Source of the DNA: Candidatus Brocadia sp.
GTDB taxonomy: Bacteria > Planctomycetota > Brocadiia > Brocadiales > Brocadiaceae
Reading direction: 5' to 3'
NCBI GenBank assembly: GCA_011525665.1
Contig: WYAU01000082.1
Span: 1-56,288 of the forward strand
Length of the DNA stretch: 56,288 nt
Below the pieces are notes generated by a model. The model searched no databases. It was not told where the DNA came from and saw only the letters and a program-made list of their open reading frames with translations. How positions within the stretch are numbered: position 1 is the stretch's first letter; every line of letters begins with the position of its first letter. The position numbers and the translations under genes were made by a program. Positions 3,196-36,307 of the stretch are shown piece by piece.

Positions 3196-3617
3196 CTAAA
3201 AATTTGTTGGCGTGTACTCATTCGCTGGAAATTTTCCTGCGTGATTGCCAGGTGTCATTTCCCAACACTTTGCTTTTTCATGATATCAAAGAAAGAATCA
3301 TGTTCACAAACACATGGAGTATTGGCAGCATCTCCAAGATGAATTACGGGGGTATGGGCGCCATAGGCTTCTACTACCCGTTGCAGAAGGTCAGAACAAA
3401 ATAAATCCTGTTGCACAGGCCTGATAGCTACAGGAATAACCTTATCTATTATTCCGTTTCTTAATGCGTTAATAGGATTCCCATACAGATTGTTAATCTG
3501 GTTATCTGAAATAATTAATACCTCGGGCAACTTCTCAAAGGGCAATTCTATTTGTTCTCCACACAAATCGCTATTAAACAAATTGATGAATGAGGGTACC
3601 CTCGCATAATTTGTCAA
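3196..3617 (-). pseudogene. Truncated, frameshifted copy of the neighbouring metallophosphoesterase
   Basis: The first 120 codons (3617-3255) encode a clear paralogue of the N-terminal third of the 563-residue phosphoesterase upstream, including a SDNQINNLYGNP stretch, IRPVQQDL and the metal-site motif HLGD. The frame then stops at 3255. In another frame the sequence continues with MTPGNHAGKF, matching the PGNHD metal motif of the intact gene, and ends at a TAG at 3196-3198. The remaining two thirds, with the AHHP and GHTH motifs, are absent. It lies 34 bp after the hammerhead gene in the same operon. It looks like a decaying tandem duplicate, not a functional enzyme. Confidence 0.8.
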
Positions 3618-3651: not shown

Positions 3652-3939
3652 TCAGGAAATCTGTGCCAGAAGTTGCGAAGGTTCATACTCCAGATTTTCA
3701 AAACGTATGCTTCTATTCAAGTATTTTACCTTTCCTGCACATCCACCGGGGGCTTTTAATGATTCAAGCGAGTGATCACCCCATTGAATCGTTGCAAGGA
3801 CATCCTCAGGTTCAACATTATCGCCTACTTCCTTTTTCCAATCTATCGAAGCAACATATTCTTCTTTCTCTGCAAATGCTGCCGGATTATTTCTCAACTC
3901 TTTAGTGGTAGCGTCATAGGTGACCAATGGGTTACTCAT
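3652..3939 (-). CDS. Small biotinyl/lipoyl-like hammerhead domain protein
   Basis: This 95-residue soluble protein carries a segment (roughly residues 28-93) resembling the biotinyl/lipoyl or HlyD-type barrel-sandwich hybrid: VGDNVEPEDVLATI followed by LKAPGGCAGKV, the usual x-x-APxxGxV turn. The canonical EAMKM or DKA acceptor lysine motif is missing at the hairpin, so covalent biotin or lipoate attachment is doubtful. The start overlaps the end of the phosphoesterase gene by 8 bp, indicating translational coupling. The role is unknown; it may be an adaptor for the envelope proteins of this operon. Confidence 0.65.
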   Translation of the reverse strand: MSNPLVTYDATTKELRNNPAAFAEKEEYVASIDWKKEVGDNVEPEDVLATIQWGDHSLESLKAPGGCAGKVKYLNRSIRFENLEYEPSQLLAQIS

Positions 3940-5623
3940 TATTGACTCCTTTCGGGGAAGGGAAACGTATATACGGGTCTGTTACTACAGGTTTGCGTCC
4001 TTCTAGTTTGTCGTATTTACTCGCCCACACTGCCTGCCACAGTCTGTAGTCGCGTCTCTCAAGCGAATTCCTTACTTTTCTCTTTTTGTCAAATCCTTCC
4101 AATGTTATTAAGAGAGAGGTCATTTCCTTTATGTCTTTATTTTTCAATACCCCTTCAATAGCATTAATAACAGCTTGGTCGTTTGAACAGTCCTTTACCC
4201 AGACAGTATTGTCTTCGGCGCTTTCAACATTAACGAGAAGTTCTCTATACGTATGCAGGAGCGCGACAAGCAGATCTTTTTGAGTCTTTGTTGGATCCAC
4301 CTCATACTTATAATTATGAGCCAGGTAAAAATTTTCGGCGTCTGTTTCTTTAATCTCCCACTTCACTGCATTACATTGCGGCTTCATGGGAGGAACTGCG
4401 TTGTCCCAAATATCAGGTATACGAAATAGCGGGGTACGAATGACAATATTTTTAGGATCGTTTTTAATCTGATGAATTTCAAATGTTCTGAATTCAATGG
4501 GCCAATCAACTATGGAACCAACATTAAGCTCGATCCACCCGTTGTCTCCACCCTGAACATAGTATTCACCCTGATGTGTGTGACCTGAAACATAAAGAGG
4601 AATAGTGTATTTTTCCCTAAACATGTCAATTTTATGACTCGTACTCGTTATCAGACTTGAATAAGGATGGTGAGCCATTAAGATTGTTATTTTTTCCCCC
4701 TTCGGAGCATTACTAAGCCATCTCTCTGCAATTTCAAGCTGATCCGACAGCATACTGCCACTGAGCCCAGCGCTATATGATATTGATGGTATCGGTGGTA
4801 TTGTGGGAGCATTCTCATATTGGGCGCTGTCCATCAATATCGCGTATACAGGTAAATCCGAATCTCCTATACACAGGTTAAGCTCCTGCAACACATAGGA
4901 ACGATATGGTCTCTCCCTATCAATCTTATATGCAACAGATTTCAGGAATTCCTTGCAGATTTCTTCACTATTTGCAGGAAGCAAAGTAGTGCTAACAGTA
5001 CCAATATTTTCCGGCCATTCCCCCAGGACAGGATGATTGTCAAGGTACTTCCCAAAGTCTTCATTCTGTTCTTTCAGATGATTTAGATATTCTTCAACAA
5101 ATCGATCCTTGGTCATCGGACCATTAGCTTCCATGCAAGCGCTTTTCCAATCCCTTTCCAAATTGTGAAGATTGCCCAGGAGATAAGCATCGTGATTTCC
5201 GGGCACCATAACCCAAGGTTGTTTTGCTGTATTCATAATTTCACAGAACGATTCAAACTCACCTATACAGGCAATGTTCGTGCCATCCCCAAGATGAACT
5301 ACCGGATGTCTCTTTCCATAATATTCCAAGACCCATTTCAGGATATCTTGACCGTAAAGGTCTTGCTGCACAGGCCGTATAGTCACAGGGACAAACTTAT
5401 CAAATAACTCATTTCTCAACCAGAAGGGGTCACCGTACAGGTGATTGAGCTGATTGTCAGCAACCAACAACAATCTCTTTGACACAGCATAACCATCAGG
5501 TTTTTCTGGTAGGATTTCATACTTGGACGAAATAGATCGGGGGGCACTACCGCAACCAATGAAATACATGGTCAGAAATAATAGAACCAGTGTGCTCATT
5601 ACCTTTTTTGTAAAATGCATCAT
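3932..5623 (-). CDS. Calcineurin-like metallophosphoesterase lipoprotein
   Basis: This 563-residue protein has a signal peptide with lipobox YFIGC (Cys 24), so it should be anchored in a membrane outside the cytoplasm. Metallophosphoesterase motifs appear in order: ADNQ (55-58, in place of the usual DxH), HLGDG (110-114), PGNHD (141-145), AHHP (317-320) and SGHTHQ (346-351), forming the expected dinuclear metal site. About 200 extra C-terminal residues show no recognised domain. Start ATG 5623 is preceded by GAGGAG. The gene is the second of the leftward operon beginning at 7071, under the c-di-GMP riboswitch and sigma-54 promoter, and is coupled to the hammerhead gene. The substrate (nucleotide, phospholipid or glycan phosphate) is unknown. 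Confidence 0.88.
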   Translation of the reverse strand: MMHFTKKVMSTLVLLFLTMYFIGCGSAPRSISSKYEILPEKPDGYAVSKRLLLVADNQLNHLYGDPFWLRNELFDKFVPVTIRPVQQDLYGQDILKWVLEYYGKRHPVVHLGDGTNIACIGEFESFCEIMNTAKQPWVMVPGNHDAYLLGNLHNLERDWKSACMEANGPMTKDRFVEEYLNHLKEQNEDFGKYLDNHPVLGEWPENIGTVSTTLLPANSEEICKEFLKSVAYKIDRERPYRSYVLQELNLCIGDSDLPVYAILMDSAQYENAPTIPPIPSISYSAGLSGSMLSDQLEIAERWLSNAPKGEKITILMAHHPYSSLITSTSHKIDMFREKYTIPLYVSGHTHQGEYYVQGGDNGWIELNVGSIVDWPIEFRTFEIHQIKNDPKNIVIRTPLFRIPDIWDNAVPPMKPQCNAVKWEIKETDAENFYLAHNYKYEVDPTKTQKDLLVALLHTYRELLVNVESAEDNTVWVKDCSNDQAVINAIEGVLKNKDIKEMTSLLITLEGFDKKRKVRNSLERRDYRLWQAVWASKYDKLEGRKPVVTDPYIRFPSPKGVNNE

Positions 5624-5769: not shown

Positions 5770-7071
5770 TTACTGCGGCCTTGCAGGATCCGTGTCAGCA
5801 GAAGTGTCTTTGTTATTGCCATTACTCTTTTCTTTTAATCCCGCAACAGCTTGTTTTAATTCATCTATAGTTTTGCCTGTTTCTTCTTCCCACAATCTTT
5901 CTATTTCCCGTTTTACCCTCGCGTCAGCTTCAGAAGTGCCACACTGTTGATATTGTTTGGCGAGGGCCGCTTCCTTATCTTCGCCTTTCTTTCCGCTAAT
6001 AGAATTTTTAATCTTAAATATTCTCACTGTTGCTTCAGCGGTGACTCCCATTTTCCTTATAGCATCTATCTTATCTGCCTCCGACTGACTTGGTTGAATC
6101 AGTATGCCACCAAGAGTTTCTTGAACATTCGTGCTTATTTGATCAAGTATTGCTCGGTCAACGGCCTTAGCAGACTTTGATACCGTTAAAACAGCGTATG
6201 TTTTATCTTCGAAATCCTTGCCTCCTGCAGTTAATCTTCCGGTAGTTGCGTCATAAAGCACCTTCGATGATTCGAATTCCTTTTTTGCATTATCTTCATC
6301 TTCAATTCCTTTATCAAGCCACCACCATCGGTTTATTATTACCCGGTCTTTATCCTCCCTTTTCACTATGACTAAATCACTTACTTCCAGCGGTGCTACC
6401 AGGGATGCCTCTCCATAATGCTTCTTTTCGATGTCTGACAACGGATAAAGAGTTATTTCCTGGGAAAGTTCAAGATCATCCTGATTTGAGTTAATAATAA
6501 ACTGCATGATAGAAGATACGGTCTCTATTGCTGCGCCATATTGTGGTTGTGCAGCACTAGCAACGGTAGAAACAGCTTTGAGAACCTCTGAAAGCAATTC
6601 ATTATTTTTCTTATCCAATTCAAAAACATAGAACTTTATTGTTACGGGATGTCCCTGGAAGTGGGTAGGACCATATAACAGGTTGCCAGCCATATTTAAA
6701 TATGAATTTGACGGTTGATTCAATCTGTGAAAGGCCACTCTTTTCAGCACTTTTGTCTCATCAACAACATCATAAACCTCTGCATACACGATAATATCGA
6801 AATCCCAAACGGACTGTGCGTACTTCAAATAGAGGGTTTTCAAAGAAATAGCAACAACATCCGAAGGCAATTTTATACTCCGATCTTCATTGGTATCTGT
6901 CGTCGCGTAAATCCCAACCAGTTCATATTTCGTACTTTCCGCTGGGGTTTCCGGTGAAGTTTCTTTCACTTTCCATAAAGAATTTTGCCCGGTTATTGTC
7001 CATTGTGCACATCCTGACAACATTGTTGTTACACATAGCACGGCAAATAATATGCGATGCTTAATATTCAT
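5770..7071 (-). CDS. Lipoprotein of unknown function, first gene of c-di-GMP-controlled operon
   Basis: This 433-residue protein starts MNIKHRILFAVLCV and has a clear lipobox LSGC (Cys 21). No known domain was recognised. The centre contains a beta-rich segment with a conspicuous NRWWWLDKG stretch; the C-terminal 100 residues are charged and predicted helical, ending in a low-complexity Asn/Asp/Pro-rich tail. The frame is open to 7218, but ATG 7071 has AGAAAGG upstream and begins the signal peptide. It precedes the phosphoesterase lipoprotein by about 150 bp on the same strand. The long leader (about 630 bases) contains the riboswitch, terminator and a large hairpin. Confidence 0.8.
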   Translation of the reverse strand: MNIKHRILFAVLCVTTMLSGCAQWTITGQNSLWKVKETSPETPAESTKYELVGIYATTDTNEDRSIKLPSDVVAISLKTLYLKYAQSVWDFDIIVYAEVYDVVDETKVLKRVAFHRLNQPSNSYLNMAGNLLYGPTHFQGHPVTIKFYVFELDKKNNELLSEVLKAVSTVASAAQPQYGAAIETVSSIMQFIINSNQDDLELSQEITLYPLSDIEKKHYGEASLVAPLEVSDLVIVKREDKDRVIINRWWWLDKGIEDEDNAKKEFESSKVLYDATTGRLTAGGKDFEDKTYAVLTVSKSAKAVDRAILDQISTNVQETLGGILIQPSQSEADKIDAIRKMGVTAEATVRIFKIKNSISGKKGEDKEAALAKQYQQCGTSEADARVKREIERLWEEETGKTIDELKQAVAGLKEKSNGNNKDTSADTDPARPQ

Positions 7072-7197
7072 AGCTTTAACCTTTCTGATAAAATAAAATA
7101 TTTTCACACTAAAATTGTTCCGTTTTGTTTGTCCCCTTCTTGCTAGTATTCTGCCAGCTTCACCTCCTGCTCTCTTTTCCAGATGCAAAATTAATAG

Positions 7198-7248
7198 TTC
7201 ACCTAAATCCTGCATCAAGGCGAAGCCTTGATGCAGGATTTAGGTGAA
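7198..7248. repeat. Perfect 24-bp stem hairpin in the operon leader
   Basis: Arms 7198-7221 and 7225-7248 are perfectly complementary around a 3-base loop. On the minus strand the loop region reads GGC-TTC-GCC. The hairpin lies in the 5' leader of the lipoprotein operon, 127-177 bases before the start codon. No T-run follows, so it is not a normal terminator. It could be a mobile palindromic repeat, an RNA-stabilising element or a processing site. Confidence 0.75.
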
Positions 7249-7531
7249 AACATGTAAAAGTCCATGTTCTGCATTTTGTCATATTGCTCAATTAAGGTCC
7301 TTTTCAACTTTTTGCGTTTGCGCAAGGGTGTAATCTATCTTTTCTTTTTCCTCTTTGTTGCCCATTCATTGATGTCCTCGCATGTATAAATGATGTCACA
7401 TTATAAATACTGCTTTTGAGGGGCCGCTCAGGTGGGGTGTTTTTTACTGAAAATCAGCGTTTTTAATGGCGTTTCCACATGTTTTCATAAGATTCCCATA
7501 CGTTGGTCATGTTTGTCCGGGGGCAATAAAT

Positions 7532-7584
7532 AAAAAAGCCTTACTGCAAAGATATTTACTCAAAACATCTTCGGCAGTAAGGCT
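7532..7584 (-). terminator. Intrinsic terminator of c-di-GMP riboswitch (locus 1)
   Basis: On the minus strand GCCTTACTGC (7583-7574) pairs with GCAGTAAGGC (7547-7538), followed by TTTTTT. The 5' arm CCTTA can alternatively pair with TAAGG at the start of the upstream aptamer. Termination and the ligand-bound aptamer are therefore mutually exclusive. Confidence 0.85.
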
Positions 7585-7685
7585 GTCTTTATTCCTGCAA
7601 AAATGGCTTTTTCAAACCACTTCCGTGTAGATTTAAAGATCCACTACTTTGCGCCCCCTGATCGCTCAGGGTTTACCCTTATCGT
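7581..7685 (-). promoter_or_regulatory. Cyclic di-GMP-I (GEMM) riboswitch, locus 1
   Basis: The minus strand reads GATAAGGGTAAACCCTGAG, then GATCAGG, then GGGCGCAAAG, and ends GACAGCC. These are the conserved blocks of the GEMM-I aptamer (GGGCAAACC, short P2 hairpin, GGACGCAAAG, ..GACAGCC). P1 is TAAGG/CCTTA. Because CCTTA is also the terminator's 5' arm, ligand binding should prevent termination (ON switch). Two positions differ from consensus: GGGTAAACC for GGGCAAACC, and GGGCGCAAAG for GGACGCAAAG. Affinity may therefore be lower than that of the second copy at 36 kb. It controls the lipoprotein-phosphoesterase operon downstream. Confidence 0.85.
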
Positions 7686-7713
7686 AATGTTTTCCAAAAG
7701 TAAAATTAGCTTT

Positions 7714-7729
7714 CGCAAAATAAAAGCCA
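7714..7729 (-). promoter_or_regulatory. Sigma-54 (-24/-12) promoter, locus 1
   Basis: The minus strand reads TGGCTTTTATTTTGCG, with GG and GC exactly 10 bp apart as required for RpoN promoters (TGGCAC-N5-TTGC). It lies about 30 bp upstream of the riboswitch, so the transcript would start just before the aptamer. The palindromes 120-175 bp further upstream fit the usual enhancer position. The same arrangement occurs at 36119-36134. Confidence 0.7.
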
Positions 7730-7846: not shown

Positions 7847-7902
7847 AAAGTGTGCCATGTCACACAAGTGAGTCGCGACACATGTGTGACATGGCACACT
7901 TT
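7847..7902. promoter_or_regulatory. Clustered palindromic operators (probable enhancer-binding sites), locus 1
   Basis: Arms 7847-7866 and 7883-7902 form a perfect 20-bp inverted repeat. Each arm contains GTGTGCCATGTCACAC or its complement, itself a 16-bp near-palindrome of type GTGTG-n-CATG-n-CACAC. The 16-bp spacer has another dyad (GTCGCGAC). The lack of a flanking T-run and the position 120-175 bp upstream of a sigma-54 promoter argue for binding sites of an RpoN activator and against a terminator. A matching cluster is present at 36259-36307. Confidence 0.7.
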
Positions 7903-31892: not shown

Positions 31893-34800
31893 TTACTGAA
31901 ATGCATGTTGAAGCAGATTAATTATTCCCATGCCTCCGAGTGGTGTAAGTGATGCAAAAAGTATAGGATTATTGCTTAATGTAGCAAAGGCGCCATTTCT
32001 TGTATTCTGAATATCTTCTATAATAAATCTTGTAAACCCTAACTCTCGCTCTAATTTCTCATTGTTTGACTCACTGCTCGTTTGTTTTTTATCCTTCATC
32101 AATTTTAGAAGCTTATCTTTTAATTGGTCAATGACTTTCTGCCGTCCTCCTTTTGCCTCACGGAACAGCATGATTGCACTATACAGTACAATCAGTATGG
32201 ACAGCACTACAACAACTGCCAGAGGCAATGTCCATTTCCAATTATCAATAAAATTATAGCGCGCAATACAGAAGATAAGTAACAAAATGAACGGGTACTT
32301 GATCATCTTTGCATTTACCTCCGTCCTTTTTGCAATAACTTTGATAATAACATACCAATAGTCGTCGTTCTGTTCGTTTCCTTTCAATTGAAATAATTCC
32401 TTTATAAACTTACGGCATTTGAACGTATCAAAAACAACATGCCAGAAGAGAAAGAACGTTAAAAAAAGGCTGGAAATCAGAATAACACGGTCTAGGCTAA
32501 AACAGAGAGAACCGCGACCGGGTATTAAAGGGTTTCCATACTTATATATAAATGCAAATCCAAGAAGTAAGTGAACACATGTAATGATAGCAACTGTTCT
32601 ATATCTCTTCCAGGTTTCGTTACTTTTTTCAAATGTATGCCACTTTTCTTTAAGATCAGCAAAAAAGCCTTCCCCTTTTTGCTCTGATAATATATGCGCT
32701 ATTTCCTCCTTATTACGCTTAACATGTTGTAGAGAGAGGGCAAAAAAGCATGTTCCAAGAAATCCGTTCAAAAGCCGGATCAATTCGGTTGGCCAAATAC
32801 TAATACCATCAAGAAATGTTATTGGTTCACCATCCGCACTGAGGGATGATTTTATTGCAAGTGCAACAAATAGTACATAAAACGCTCCCCCTATAATCCC
32901 AAGACATTTCCAGTAACACATGAACTTCAAATATGTTGGGAAATCACTAAAATCATTTTGATCAGGCAAAAATTGCCAGAAGAACCAACCAAGTATTATT
33001 ATAGGGGGAACAAACAGACATATGAAAAATTTTATCTGCACATACGTCCGATCAGGATGAAGATATAACTCCTCCTTTCGTAATTCTGTTTCTGGTGTAT
33101 GGTCTGAACTTAAATCATATTCACCCCGATACCCTATTTCAAAGATGCGAGGAGATATCTTATTTAAATTAATATCATCTTCCTTTAAACTACCCAATGC
33201 CTGCAAAGCGGCAACAAAGGCAGAGGTTTGATAGACGGATCTGAAAGGTGGGATGTCTTTTTGCAAGTTATGACGTAACTGCAGTCCATAACTCGATGCG
33301 ACGATCAGGTTCCTTGTAAAAGGTAATTCGGTATGATGCCAGAGACGGGCGTCAAGGTCTGTGGTAAAAAAAATAGTATTGCGAAATTCTTTACGAAGCG
33401 CGCGTAATATCAACAATTTATCATAAACATCGCTGCCCATTATACCAATCGCCCGAATTTTATCACGATCGTTTACGATATTTTTTACTTTTTCTGTAAG
33501 ACGTCGCATATAGTCAAATTGGTCTTGTCCCTGGGGTTGTTCGAATTTAGGATTGAAATAATCAAAATCGGTTGGTGAACTCTTCTTCTTGTCGCTATTG
33601 GAATTACCTCCGGTAGATATTTCTGAATCCCTGTTAGGCAATTTACCATCGATACCACGCATATAGGTAATGGTATGAATACGTTCAGGCCAGGTATTGC
33701 CAATCCTTTGCGGGGTTTCTTCTGAATAAGCCTTCTCTAAAAGAAGGCGATTCAATCTTTTTGTTTCCCATTGAGTATCCTCACTTAAACGGGAAAAACC
33801 AATACTGCGGTCTTCTTGAGTCTCTTTTATAATGTTAGACAATCGGTCTTTACCCCTCACTTTACCCAAAAAGTCATACAATCCAGGATTTGTTAAAAAT
33901 TCGTTTAGCCAATCGATTGGCTTGCGGGAAGCATTCAGAGGCAATAAAGGAATAAGGTCTGGAGCCTTACCAGGGTAAATGTGTGCCAAGACAAGACGGT
34001 TAAGCAATTTTATGGCATATTTTTCATCGTTGTTCAACTTGGAAAAACTTTTCTTTCTGTACCTAACTGTTTTATTATTCAATTCCTTTATAATTTTGCC
34101 AGAAGTTATCTCTCGTCGTTTTTCTGAAGGTATTTTATCATAAAAATCAGGAACTTTTAAAAGTTCATTGAGCCACTCAATGGTATGACTGGATACGTTC
34201 TTGAAAGGAGGCACTCCATAATCAGCACGCTCAATCTCAATACAGAGTGTTACGATATCATGTGGTTGTTTAAATTCGTCCTTGCGAAAGTCTATAGAAT
34301 TTAATATGTCCTCAATAATCTTCTTATAAAGCCTCTCTGGGTTCAATGGTTCCTTAAACTCACCCTTAAAGAAATCTGAATAACCCTCCTCCCGTTCACG
34401 ATATTTTTGTACAGACATAGCAAAAGAGGTCGGTAAGGCACGTCCGTAAAAGGTATCCCATTCACTAATAAGCAGTATATGATCGGAGCTATTGCTTGAC
34501 AAATTTATTTTTCGACGTGTCAACTCATCAACCAATTCATCGGTCAATTGTGAATCATTGTGAATGGTAGCTGTTAAGGAAATATCTGATTCTGTTGGGA
34601 ATAGTAATGTATAAAAAGCATCCTTTTCAAGATATTCTTCTAATTCTTTCTTAATTTGTATGAGATTTGAAATACTTTTTTGAGGTTTTTCTCTTTTAGA
34701 CATACGCTGCCCAATTTGATATATTAAAAAAAAAGGGTCTGCATTAGCCCATGGAGAATATAATATAAACTTTTTCTCTGAAGAATTCTTTAATATCTTT

Positions 34801-35921
34801 TTTATCTCTTCTATTTTGTCGGAATGCTTCTTTTTAGCTGATTCTAATTCTGATTCTAATTTTTTTATTTCAGATTCAAACTCTCTTTGCTCATTTTTTA
34901 TTTTTGATTTTACATCTTCAAGAAGTTTTTTTCTTTTATTTTTACATAAGCTATCCTTTCTATTATCTAAATCTTTAAATTTCTTACTTAAAGATATCCA
35001 TATTCCACGCACTTCATTTTTTTCTTTACGTTCTTTACGTTCAAGTTGTTTTTTTTGTAAATTAACTTTTTTCTCTTTGTTAAACAAAGCATTTTCAGAT
35101 TCAGATAATTCATATAATTTCTGAATATTTTCAGCTATTTCTTTGTTTTTTTCATCAAGTGCCTGCTTACAAATCTCTTCAAGGCATAAAGAGTCTTTAG
35201 GGCCAAGAATCTTACAATCAACTCTATCGGAACCCTGCTTTCCATCTGCATCTTTTACCTCTATTACAAATTCCTTAACTACCTCCAGCACTTGCTTCGT
35301 TATCAATTCCATCTGACCTAATCGGTCATTTGAAAAATATTCGTCCCCCAGCCAAAGGACAAGAACTGCCTCGTAAGTATTTGTGGCTTCTGCGTCCGAC
35401 ATCTTCAGGGTATCCTGAAGATACCACTCGTATGGTATAAGGCGTTCTTGTCGGTTGATCTGTGCTTTGAACACCCCAATATGTGTGGCATTTTTGGGTT
35501 GATAACCGGCAGCATGAAGCGCAGAAAGCACGGCATATCGGGTTCTCAGGCGCTCTTCCGCATCTTCTGTATAATGGCCAGCACTTATCATAACAGGCAT
35601 GATCAACACATCCTTAATGTCTTCCTGAGATTTAAATATCCCGGATTTCTGACAACCGTCCATTATGTTTGGAATGGAAAATTTTGGATGAATTGCCTCA
35701 GTATCTTTTCTATAACCTTCAACCGCTTGAAATGGGTCCTGCCACAAACGGGCAAGCACTTTTTCTTCTTCTATCTGCTGTTCTATTTCTTTTTGGCTCT
35801 TGGACGGCCGGAGTGATTCTAAAGGCGAATAGAAAGTAAAAACACCGCCTGCAATAATGGCAGCAATAAGCAGGGTAATAGAAAATGGAAACGATGATTG
35901 CTTGTCTTGGTGATCGGTCAT
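31893..35921 (-). CDS. 1342-residue polytopic membrane protein of unknown function, c-di-GMP controlled
   Basis: Layout by residue: TM helix 11-31; a mixed domain with VLIMPVMISAGHYTEDAEERL (about 105-215); highly charged coiled coil 250-380; a second globular region 385-560. An internal duplication follows (about 581-650 and 669-737, both with WLNExLxxPxxYD ... FSxLxxD ... LNRLxL). A PBP-like segment (about 820-915) includes GIMGSDVYDKLLILRAL, FFTTDLDARLWHH and RNLIVASSYGLQL. Seven C-terminal helices occupy 960-1255. No Walker, kinase or nuclease motif was seen. The DARL/NLIVASS block recalls ligand-binding folds of amino-acid ABC receptors, but this is weak. The gene stands alone behind a sigma-54 promoter and c-di-GMP riboswitch like those at 7.5-7.9 kb, which links it functionally to the phosphoesterase operon. 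Confidence 0.85.
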   Translation of the reverse strand: MTDHQDKQSSFPFSITLLIAAIIAGGVFTFYSPLESLRPSKSQKEIEQQIEEEKVLARLWQDPFQAVEGYRKDTEAIHPKFSIPNIMDGCQKSGIFKSQEDIKDVLIMPVMISAGHYTEDAEERLRTRYAVLSALHAAGYQPKNATHIGVFKAQINRQERLIPYEWYLQDTLKMSDAEATNTYEAVLVLWLGDEYFSNDRLGQMELITKQVLEVVKEFVIEVKDADGKQGSDRVDCKILGPKDSLCLEEICKQALDEKNKEIAENIQKLYELSESENALFNKEKKVNLQKKQLERKERKEKNEVRGIWISLSKKFKDLDNRKDSLCKNKRKKLLEDVKSKIKNEQREFESEIKKLESELESAKKKHSDKIEEIKKILKNSSEKKFILYSPWANADPFFLIYQIGQRMSKREKPQKSISNLIQIKKELEEYLEKDAFYTLLFPTESDISLTATIHNDSQLTDELVDELTRRKINLSSNSSDHILLISEWDTFYGRALPTSFAMSVQKYREREEGYSDFFKGEFKEPLNPERLYKKIIEDILNSIDFRKDEFKQPHDIVTLCIEIERADYGVPPFKNVSSHTIEWLNELLKVPDFYDKIPSEKRREITSGKIIKELNNKTVRYRKKSFSKLNNDEKYAIKLLNRLVLAHIYPGKAPDLIPLLPLNASRKPIDWLNEFLTNPGLYDFLGKVRGKDRLSNIIKETQEDRSIGFSRLSEDTQWETKRLNRLLLEKAYSEETPQRIGNTWPERIHTITYMRGIDGKLPNRDSEISTGGNSNSDKKKSSPTDFDYFNPKFEQPQGQDQFDYMRRLTEKVKNIVNDRDKIRAIGIMGSDVYDKLLILRALRKEFRNTIFFTTDLDARLWHHTELPFTRNLIVASSYGLQLRHNLQKDIPPFRSVYQTSAFVAALQALGSLKEDDINLNKISPRIFEIGYRGEYDLSSDHTPETELRKEELYLHPDRTYVQIKFFICLFVPPIIILGWFFWQFLPDQNDFSDFPTYLKFMCYWKCLGIIGGAFYVLFVALAIKSSLSADGEPITFLDGISIWPTELIRLLNGFLGTCFFALSLQHVKRNKEEIAHILSEQKGEGFFADLKEKWHTFEKSNETWKRYRTVAIITCVHLLLGFAFIYKYGNPLIPGRGSLCFSLDRVILISSLFLTFFLFWHVVFDTFKCRKFIKELFQLKGNEQNDDYWYVIIKVIAKRTEVNAKMIKYPFILLLIFCIARYNFIDNWKWTLPLAVVVVLSILIVLYSAIMLFREAKGGRQKVIDQLKDKLLKLMKDKKQTSSESNNEKLERELGFTRFIIEDIQNTRNGAFATLSNNPILFASLTPLGGMGIINLLQHAFQ

Positions 35922-35943
35922 TTTATGGTATTAACTTTAAATA

Positions 35944-35993
35944 AAAAAACCTTACTGCAAAGATATTCATGCTAAGCATCATTGGCAGTAAGG
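35944..35993 (-). terminator. Intrinsic terminator of c-di-GMP riboswitch (locus 2)
   Basis: On the minus strand CCTTACTGC (35993-35985) pairs with GCAGTAAGG (35958-35950), followed by TTTTTTTAT. The T-run ends about 20 bp before the start codon at 35921. The 5' arm overlaps the P1 strand of the aptamer, exactly as in locus 1. Confidence 0.87.
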
Positions 35994-36092
35994 CTGTCTT
36001 TTTTAAACCGTTGAAGCAGTTTAAACCATTTCAACTGTTAGAAAGACCCTTTCCTTTGCGTCCCCCGATCACTCAGGGTTTGCCCTTATCGT
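35992..36092 (-). promoter_or_regulatory. Cyclic di-GMP-I (GEMM) riboswitch, locus 2
   Basis: The minus strand contains GATAAGGGCAAACCCTGAGT, GATCGGG and GGACGCAAAG, a variable P3 arm and closing GACAGCC, matching the GEMM-I consensus blocks exactly. P1 (TAAGG/CCTTA) competes with the terminator at 35950-35993, so ligand binding should allow read-through. The GGGCAAACC form with G at the discriminating position suggests c-di-GMP rather than cGAMP, though only binding tests can settle this. It controls the 1342-residue protein. Confidence 0.9.
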
Positions 36093-36118
36093 GATTTTTA
36101 ATTTACGAATGATTAGAG

Positions 36119-36134
36119 GGCAAGGTAAATACCA
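36119..36134 (-). promoter_or_regulatory. Sigma-54 (-24/-12) promoter, locus 2
   Basis: The minus strand reads TGGTATTTACCTTGCC, with GG and GC at the exact RpoN spacing. It lies about 27 bp upstream of the aptamer. The same element, spacing and order occur at 7714-7729. Confidence 0.7.
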
Positions 36135-36258
36135 AAAAAGGGGGGAAAGAAATAATTTTAAAATATTATTTCCTTATGTTGCTGATATTAAGTATCTTAT
36201 AGATACAGCAGAAGGAGGTGAACCGTAGTGTGATTTATTCAACCGAAAATGGATAAAA

Positions 36259-36307
36259 TGTGCCATGACACACTTGTGTGACGTCACAACTGTGTGTCAT
36301 GACACAC
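36259..36307. promoter_or_regulatory. Triple palindromic operator cluster, locus 2
   Basis: Three dyads occur in 49 bp: TGTGCCATGACACAC (36259-36273), TGTGACGTCACA (36277-36288, perfect) and GTGTGTCATGACACAC (36292-36307, perfect). The outer two share the GTGTG-n-CATG-n-CACAC pattern of locus 1. The cluster starts about 125 bp upstream of the sigma-54 promoter, a normal place for enhancer-binding protein sites. The cognate regulator is not in the window. The rest of 35922-36469 contains no other recognised element. Confidence 0.72.

Follow-up and report, generated by a model that had tools for sequence, protein, structure and literature searches.

The window analysed here, a 56,288-nucleotide stretch of Candidatus Brocadia DNA, carries a compact series of regulatory elements in front of a gene for a 1342-residue membrane protein, and a second such series 28 kb away. 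This raises the question of what the shared switch means: whether the products of both loci work in one system, as a first-pass annotation proposed, or the loci belong to something wider. We consider it likely that the segment is one copy of the standard two-input module of a Candidatus Brocadia regulon, in which a phosphorelay acting through sigma-54 and c-di-GMP would both be required.

Two copies of one regulatory series

The segment at 35943-36307 (minus strand; locus 2) contains an enhancer triplet, a GG-N10-GC promoter, a GEMM-I aptamer and a terminator, in that order. The triplet (36258-36307) consists of the palindromes GTGTGNCATGNCACAC, GTGTGACGTCACAC and GTGTGNCATGNCACAC at 36258-36273, 36276-36289 and 36292-36307, with the outer sites 34 bp apart. 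The predicted -24/-12 (sigma-54) promoter, a sequence match reading TGGTATTTACCTTGCC, lies at 36119-36134 (minus strand) and places the transcription start near 36108. The aptamer (35981-36094, minus strand; E 2.3e-8) begins about 14 nt downstream and is followed by an intrinsic terminator (35943-35995, minus strand) and by the gene for the giant protein (31893-35921, minus strand). A squalene-hopene cyclase encoded beside this segment shares 80-84% identity with those in Candidatus Brocadia records.

Locus 1 repeats this arrangement. Its triplet (7850-7899) has two outer 16-bp palindromes, spaced 34 bp apart, and a third palindrome midway between these. They are followed on the minus strand by the promoter match TGGCTTTTATTTTGCG (7714-7729), again of GG-N10-GC form and with a predicted start near 7703, then by the aptamer (7570-7687; E 4.2e-7) and a terminator (7532-7584). 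The near-identical order and spacing noticed in the first-pass annotation is borne out, and all four elements are found at each locus. The operator-promoter distance, first put at 120-175 bp, varies with the edge used and is about right; from the inner operator edge it is 123 bp at locus 2 and 120 bp at locus 1. As the annotation also noted, the DNA between the elements is not alike.

Both aptamers align over the full Rfam model RF01051 (positions 1-87) and score well above its gathering score of 35, with 56.2 bits at locus 2 and 51.1 bits at locus 1, which assigns them to the c-di-GMP-I riboswitches. Each of the 35 GEMM-I copies of the genome has GG where Vc2 carries G20, a feature associated with binding of c-di-GMP rather than cGAMP; the predicted ligand is c-di-GMP. 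At both loci AGCCTTACTGC pairs with GCAGTAAGGTT (or a variant ending in GCT) ahead of a T run, and the terminator arm is the 3' strand of the aptamer. This agrees with the competing terminators described earlier and has the layout of an ON switch. Terminator and aptamer overlap in the same way in 29 of 34 GEMM-I elements of the genome.

A single-site operator pattern with three mismatches allowed matches the window 12 times, where 1.67 matches are expected, and none of 100 shuffles reached 12. Alignment of 42 clusters yields a three-dyad consensus upstream of the promoter, composed of an A-rich stretch, GTGTGNCATGNCACAC, GTGTGACGTCACAC, GTGTGNCATGNCACAC and a T-rich stretch, with neighbouring centres 17 bp apart. 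Assignment of the promoters to sigma-54 draws on the GG-N10-GC core at both loci and on the presence in the genome of rpoN and 21 strong PF00158 sigma-54 activators.

Three target genes are assigned to locus 1. An open reading frame at 5770-7218 (minus strand) encodes a lipoprotein with no Pfam or NCBIfam match, whose start codon is probably the ATG at 7071 and not the TTG at 7218. It is followed by a calcineurin-like phosphoesterase lipoprotein (3932-5623, minus strand; PF00149, E 4e-12) and by a 95-residue protein (3652-3939, minus strand) which, by eye only, has a biotinyl/lipoyl-like look. Fragments resembling the phosphoesterase occur in the window at 3255-3617 (52% identity) and on another contig of the genome (C60, 498-1070; 40% identity). 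Between riboswitch and lipoprotein gene, a long and seemingly perfect inverted repeat, CCTAAATCCTGCATCAAGGC...GCCTTGATGCAGGATTTAGG, is visible by eye at 7205-7255.

Extent of the regulon

This genome has 12 operator clusters (21 sites), of which the two loci account for two. GEMM-I follows eight of the 12, and six of these eight also match the promoter at its usual spacing. The first-pass annotation had called for a search of related genomes; ten Brocadia relatives each have 2-24 single-site matches against 0 or 1 control matches.

For a wider comparison, 48 clusters were collected from six genomes (G000, which is that of the window, G001, G004, G007, G008 and G010). GEMM-I follows 31 of them, 29 by its core pattern and two more (L214, L222) by Rfam; in the remaining 17, none was found in front of a gene. 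Among the 29 clusters linked by core pattern, 21 have a -24/-12 match 105-135 bp from the operator, compared with 2.9% of random 46-bp windows, so that promoter matches are about 25 times commoner at this fixed distance; eight have no match at the threshold used. The GEMM core lies 37-68 nt past the promoter start in 19 of the 21. That the same combination of enhancer, promoter and riboswitch recurs across many loci, both here and in congeners, strongly supports the earlier proposal that the two loci are co-regulated.

The operator extends beyond the genus. Paired sites occur in four other genera of the family's order, one of which lies in another family, and the control gave no matches there. 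Outside the genus the triplet mostly stands without a riboswitch: Rfam reports GEMM-I near the operator in none of 20 regions in G015 (where a pattern match at L296 is not reported by Rfam), none of eight in G013 and two of six in G018, while in G058 one of six regions has a copy, far from the operator. This distribution hints that the enhancer regulon may be the older part and the riboswitch layer a later addition. GEMM-I elements number 35 in this genome and 19-56 in Brocadia relatives, and their number correlates with that of operators across the family (Spearman 0.76, with relatedness ignored). Four copies are clustered on one strand of contig C17 (L037, 8997-11056).

Candidate activators

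The likely activator of the operator is an enhancer-binding protein that we term C16 (607 residues as read), with receiver, PAS, AAA+ and Fis-type helix-turn-helix (HTH) domains. It is the best fit among the 21 activators of the genome. C16-type orthologues are present in all 15 checked genomes with at least four sites, compared with two of eight with fewer (Fisher p 0.0003, for 23 genomes that were picked with operator counts already known and are not independent where related). Within-genus contrasts (G013/G021 and G025, G028/G020) show the same tracking. Counting against it, two genomes (G014, G055) have a C16-type gene and no operator matches.

Genetic organization provides a second line of evidence. 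Counted from the last aligned C16-type codon, an operator follows after about 35-80 bp in G000, G001, G004, G015, G022, G041 and G054, and after about 165 bp in G013, so that this arrangement spans several genera. The order histidine kinase, activator, operator, PAS-HD-GYP gene is conserved in G000, G001, G004 and G015, the kinase gene being large. No C16-type activator was detected in G010, which has two sites. There the giant-protein gene keeps GEMM-I upstream, and neither an operator nor a -24/-12 match was found in the region before it. A TTGACA is visible before this gene.

Other activators fit less well. C77 and C69 were rejected as binders, being present in genomes without operators. 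C71, a 445-residue protein with a degenerate receiver, would, as main owner of the enhancer, be a FleQ/VpsR-like master regulator acting also on its own gene. That gene carries operator, -24/-12 promoter and GEMM-I, and the HTH of its product closely resembles that of C16. The phyletic profile does not fit: close matches (E <= 1e-100) are missing from G013, G015, G022 and G026, which have 16-21 sites, and one is present in G055, which has none. We therefore rejected C71 as master regulator and regard its main ownership of the enhancer as improbable, although, given so similar an HTH, it could share or own some sites. By eye, the receiver of C71 (L048, 7241-8578) apparently lacks the phosphorylated Asp.

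A slightly poorer prospect is that a repressor or CRP-type protein recognises the palindromes, that the -24/-12 matches are partly due to chance, and that the riboswitch is the only real control. The TGTG...CACA half-sites do look CRP-like, and two CRP-like genes are among the targets. However, the CRP site is TGTGA-N6-TCACA, and the half-site spacing here is different. The excess of promoter matches at a fixed distance and the tracking of the operator with an enhancer-binding protein across genomes also speak against this reading. We retain a C16-type protein as the candidate activator.

Target genes and the giant membrane protein

The genes under the switch are functionally diverse, and many code for exported or signalling proteins, with proteases, surface proteins and regulators among them. 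Two of those in this genome encode a PAS-GGDEF and a PAS-HD-GYP protein; judged by eye, the former retains its GGEEF and RxxD motifs and the latter its HD and GYP motifs. Others in this genome encode two CRP-like proteins, a second activator, and proteins of the matrixin, kelch and TPR-PEGA types. The targets in relatives include two caspase-like proteins by Pfam and a third that resembles one of them by eye, as well as a subtilase, a haem peroxidase and an autotransporter. PADLOC reports its caspase model for two regulon targets, with one further weak match.

The giant protein is conserved in other Brocadiales and, as first annotated, belongs to no recognised family: Pfam, NCBIfam and PADLOC gave no match, and a PDB profile search with its alignment was empty. 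By eye, its long conserved middle is flanked by a hydrophobic stretch on the N-terminal side and a hydrophobic part at the C-terminus. A single-sequence AlphaFold model of 936 residues from its N-terminal side reached a pLDDT of 37 and was set aside. A search of the genome's contigs with the protein returned no relatives; whole-genome searches of relatives found homologues in G001, G007, G008, G010 and other families, as well as degraded copies of the gene in G004 and G009. The degraded gene of G004 (L238) retains GEMM-I and a single operator site.

An in-frame insert (33708-34379, minus strand; approximately residues 515-738), made up of two repeats of roughly 80-115 residues, is missing from close homologues. 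It recurs inside a DevR-like Cas7, a RAMP protein and an nSTAND1-WD40 protein (L101, L085, L088, L086, L209), and it sits at another place in the homologue of G058. On these comparisons it looks like a mobile coding insert.

The first-pass annotation had named a lack of co-inheritance in related genomes as grounds for refuting its one-system proposal. In the six genomes with an intact or degraded giant-protein gene, no match to the lipoprotein or phosphoesterase of locus 1 was found. The lipoprotein occurs in G006 and G031, where the giant protein is matched by its mobile insert only, and the phosphoesterase was found in no congener. That the lipoprotein, phosphoesterase and giant membrane protein are halves of one machine, as the same switch at two places 28 kb apart on one contig might suggest, is thus very improbable, because the sets are not co-inherited and ten more clusters with unrelated targets use the switch.

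Proposed mechanism

We propose that a phosphorylated C16-type response regulator binds the three palindromes, where three dimers would probably assemble one AAA+ hexamer. The bound activator would switch on sigma-54 RNA polymerase at the -24/-12 promoter some 120 bp downstream, and the aptamer would stand almost at the start of the transcript. If c-di-GMP were absent, the 3' strand of the aptamer would form the terminator and transcription would stop; if it were present, the aptamer would keep this strand and the gene would be read. With an enhancer and sigma-54 promoter followed by an RNA sensor of c-di-GMP, each target would come under AND control, probably needing two signals. Since the regulon includes its own diguanylate cyclase and HD-GYP phosphodiesterase, it could also feed back on the c-di-GMP signal.

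More tentatively, Brocadia may have made an older sigma-54 regulon two-key by placing riboswitches after most of its promoters. Its own cyclase and phosphodiesterase would make the switch self-adjusting, and it would govern surface and protease functions and possibly aggregation or granule growth. The spread of RNA switches onto an existing regulon becomes testable in this family, because its other genera have the operator mostly without the riboswitch. For anammox bacteria, a group difficult to manipulate, the analysis also provides a concrete circuit, with candidates for sensor kinase and activator, an operator and a list of targets.

Comparison with known systems

Enhancer-binding proteins of the FleQ/VpsR type join sigma-54-type activators with c-di-GMP and surface functions. 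In those systems the protein binds c-di-GMP, whereas here the predicted sensor is an RNA aptamer in the transcript. The enhancer itself is closest in layout to that of norVW in Escherichia coli, where three NorR sites upstream of a sigma-54 promoter are needed for assembly of the activator oligomer (PMC2941729). By analogy, the candidate activator may work like NorR. The three-site layout is common to both and the sequence differs. NorR senses nitric oxide through a GAF domain, in contrast to the receiver and PAS domains of the candidate, which does not qualify as a NorR orthologue. No riboswitch is described after the norVW promoter, whereas GEMM-I follows the promoter here.

The riboswitch resembles the pilM-type ON switches of Geobacter. 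In the GEMM-I of pilM, the terminator reuses the 3' aptamer strand, so that aptamer and terminator exclude each other (PMC9262584), and G. sulfurreducens has 17 GEMM-I copies (PMC6456294), so both strand reuse and high copy number are alike. However, pilM senses cGAMP, whereas the Brocadia aptamers match c-di-GMP-I models, and the Brocadia switch lies a few nucleotides after a predicted sigma-54 start, under a shared enhancer. The individual parts are already known from other systems. In the literature searched, which covered few subscription papers, no description was found of one genome in which a common enhancer and a common riboswitch class are joined in fixed geometry at many loci.
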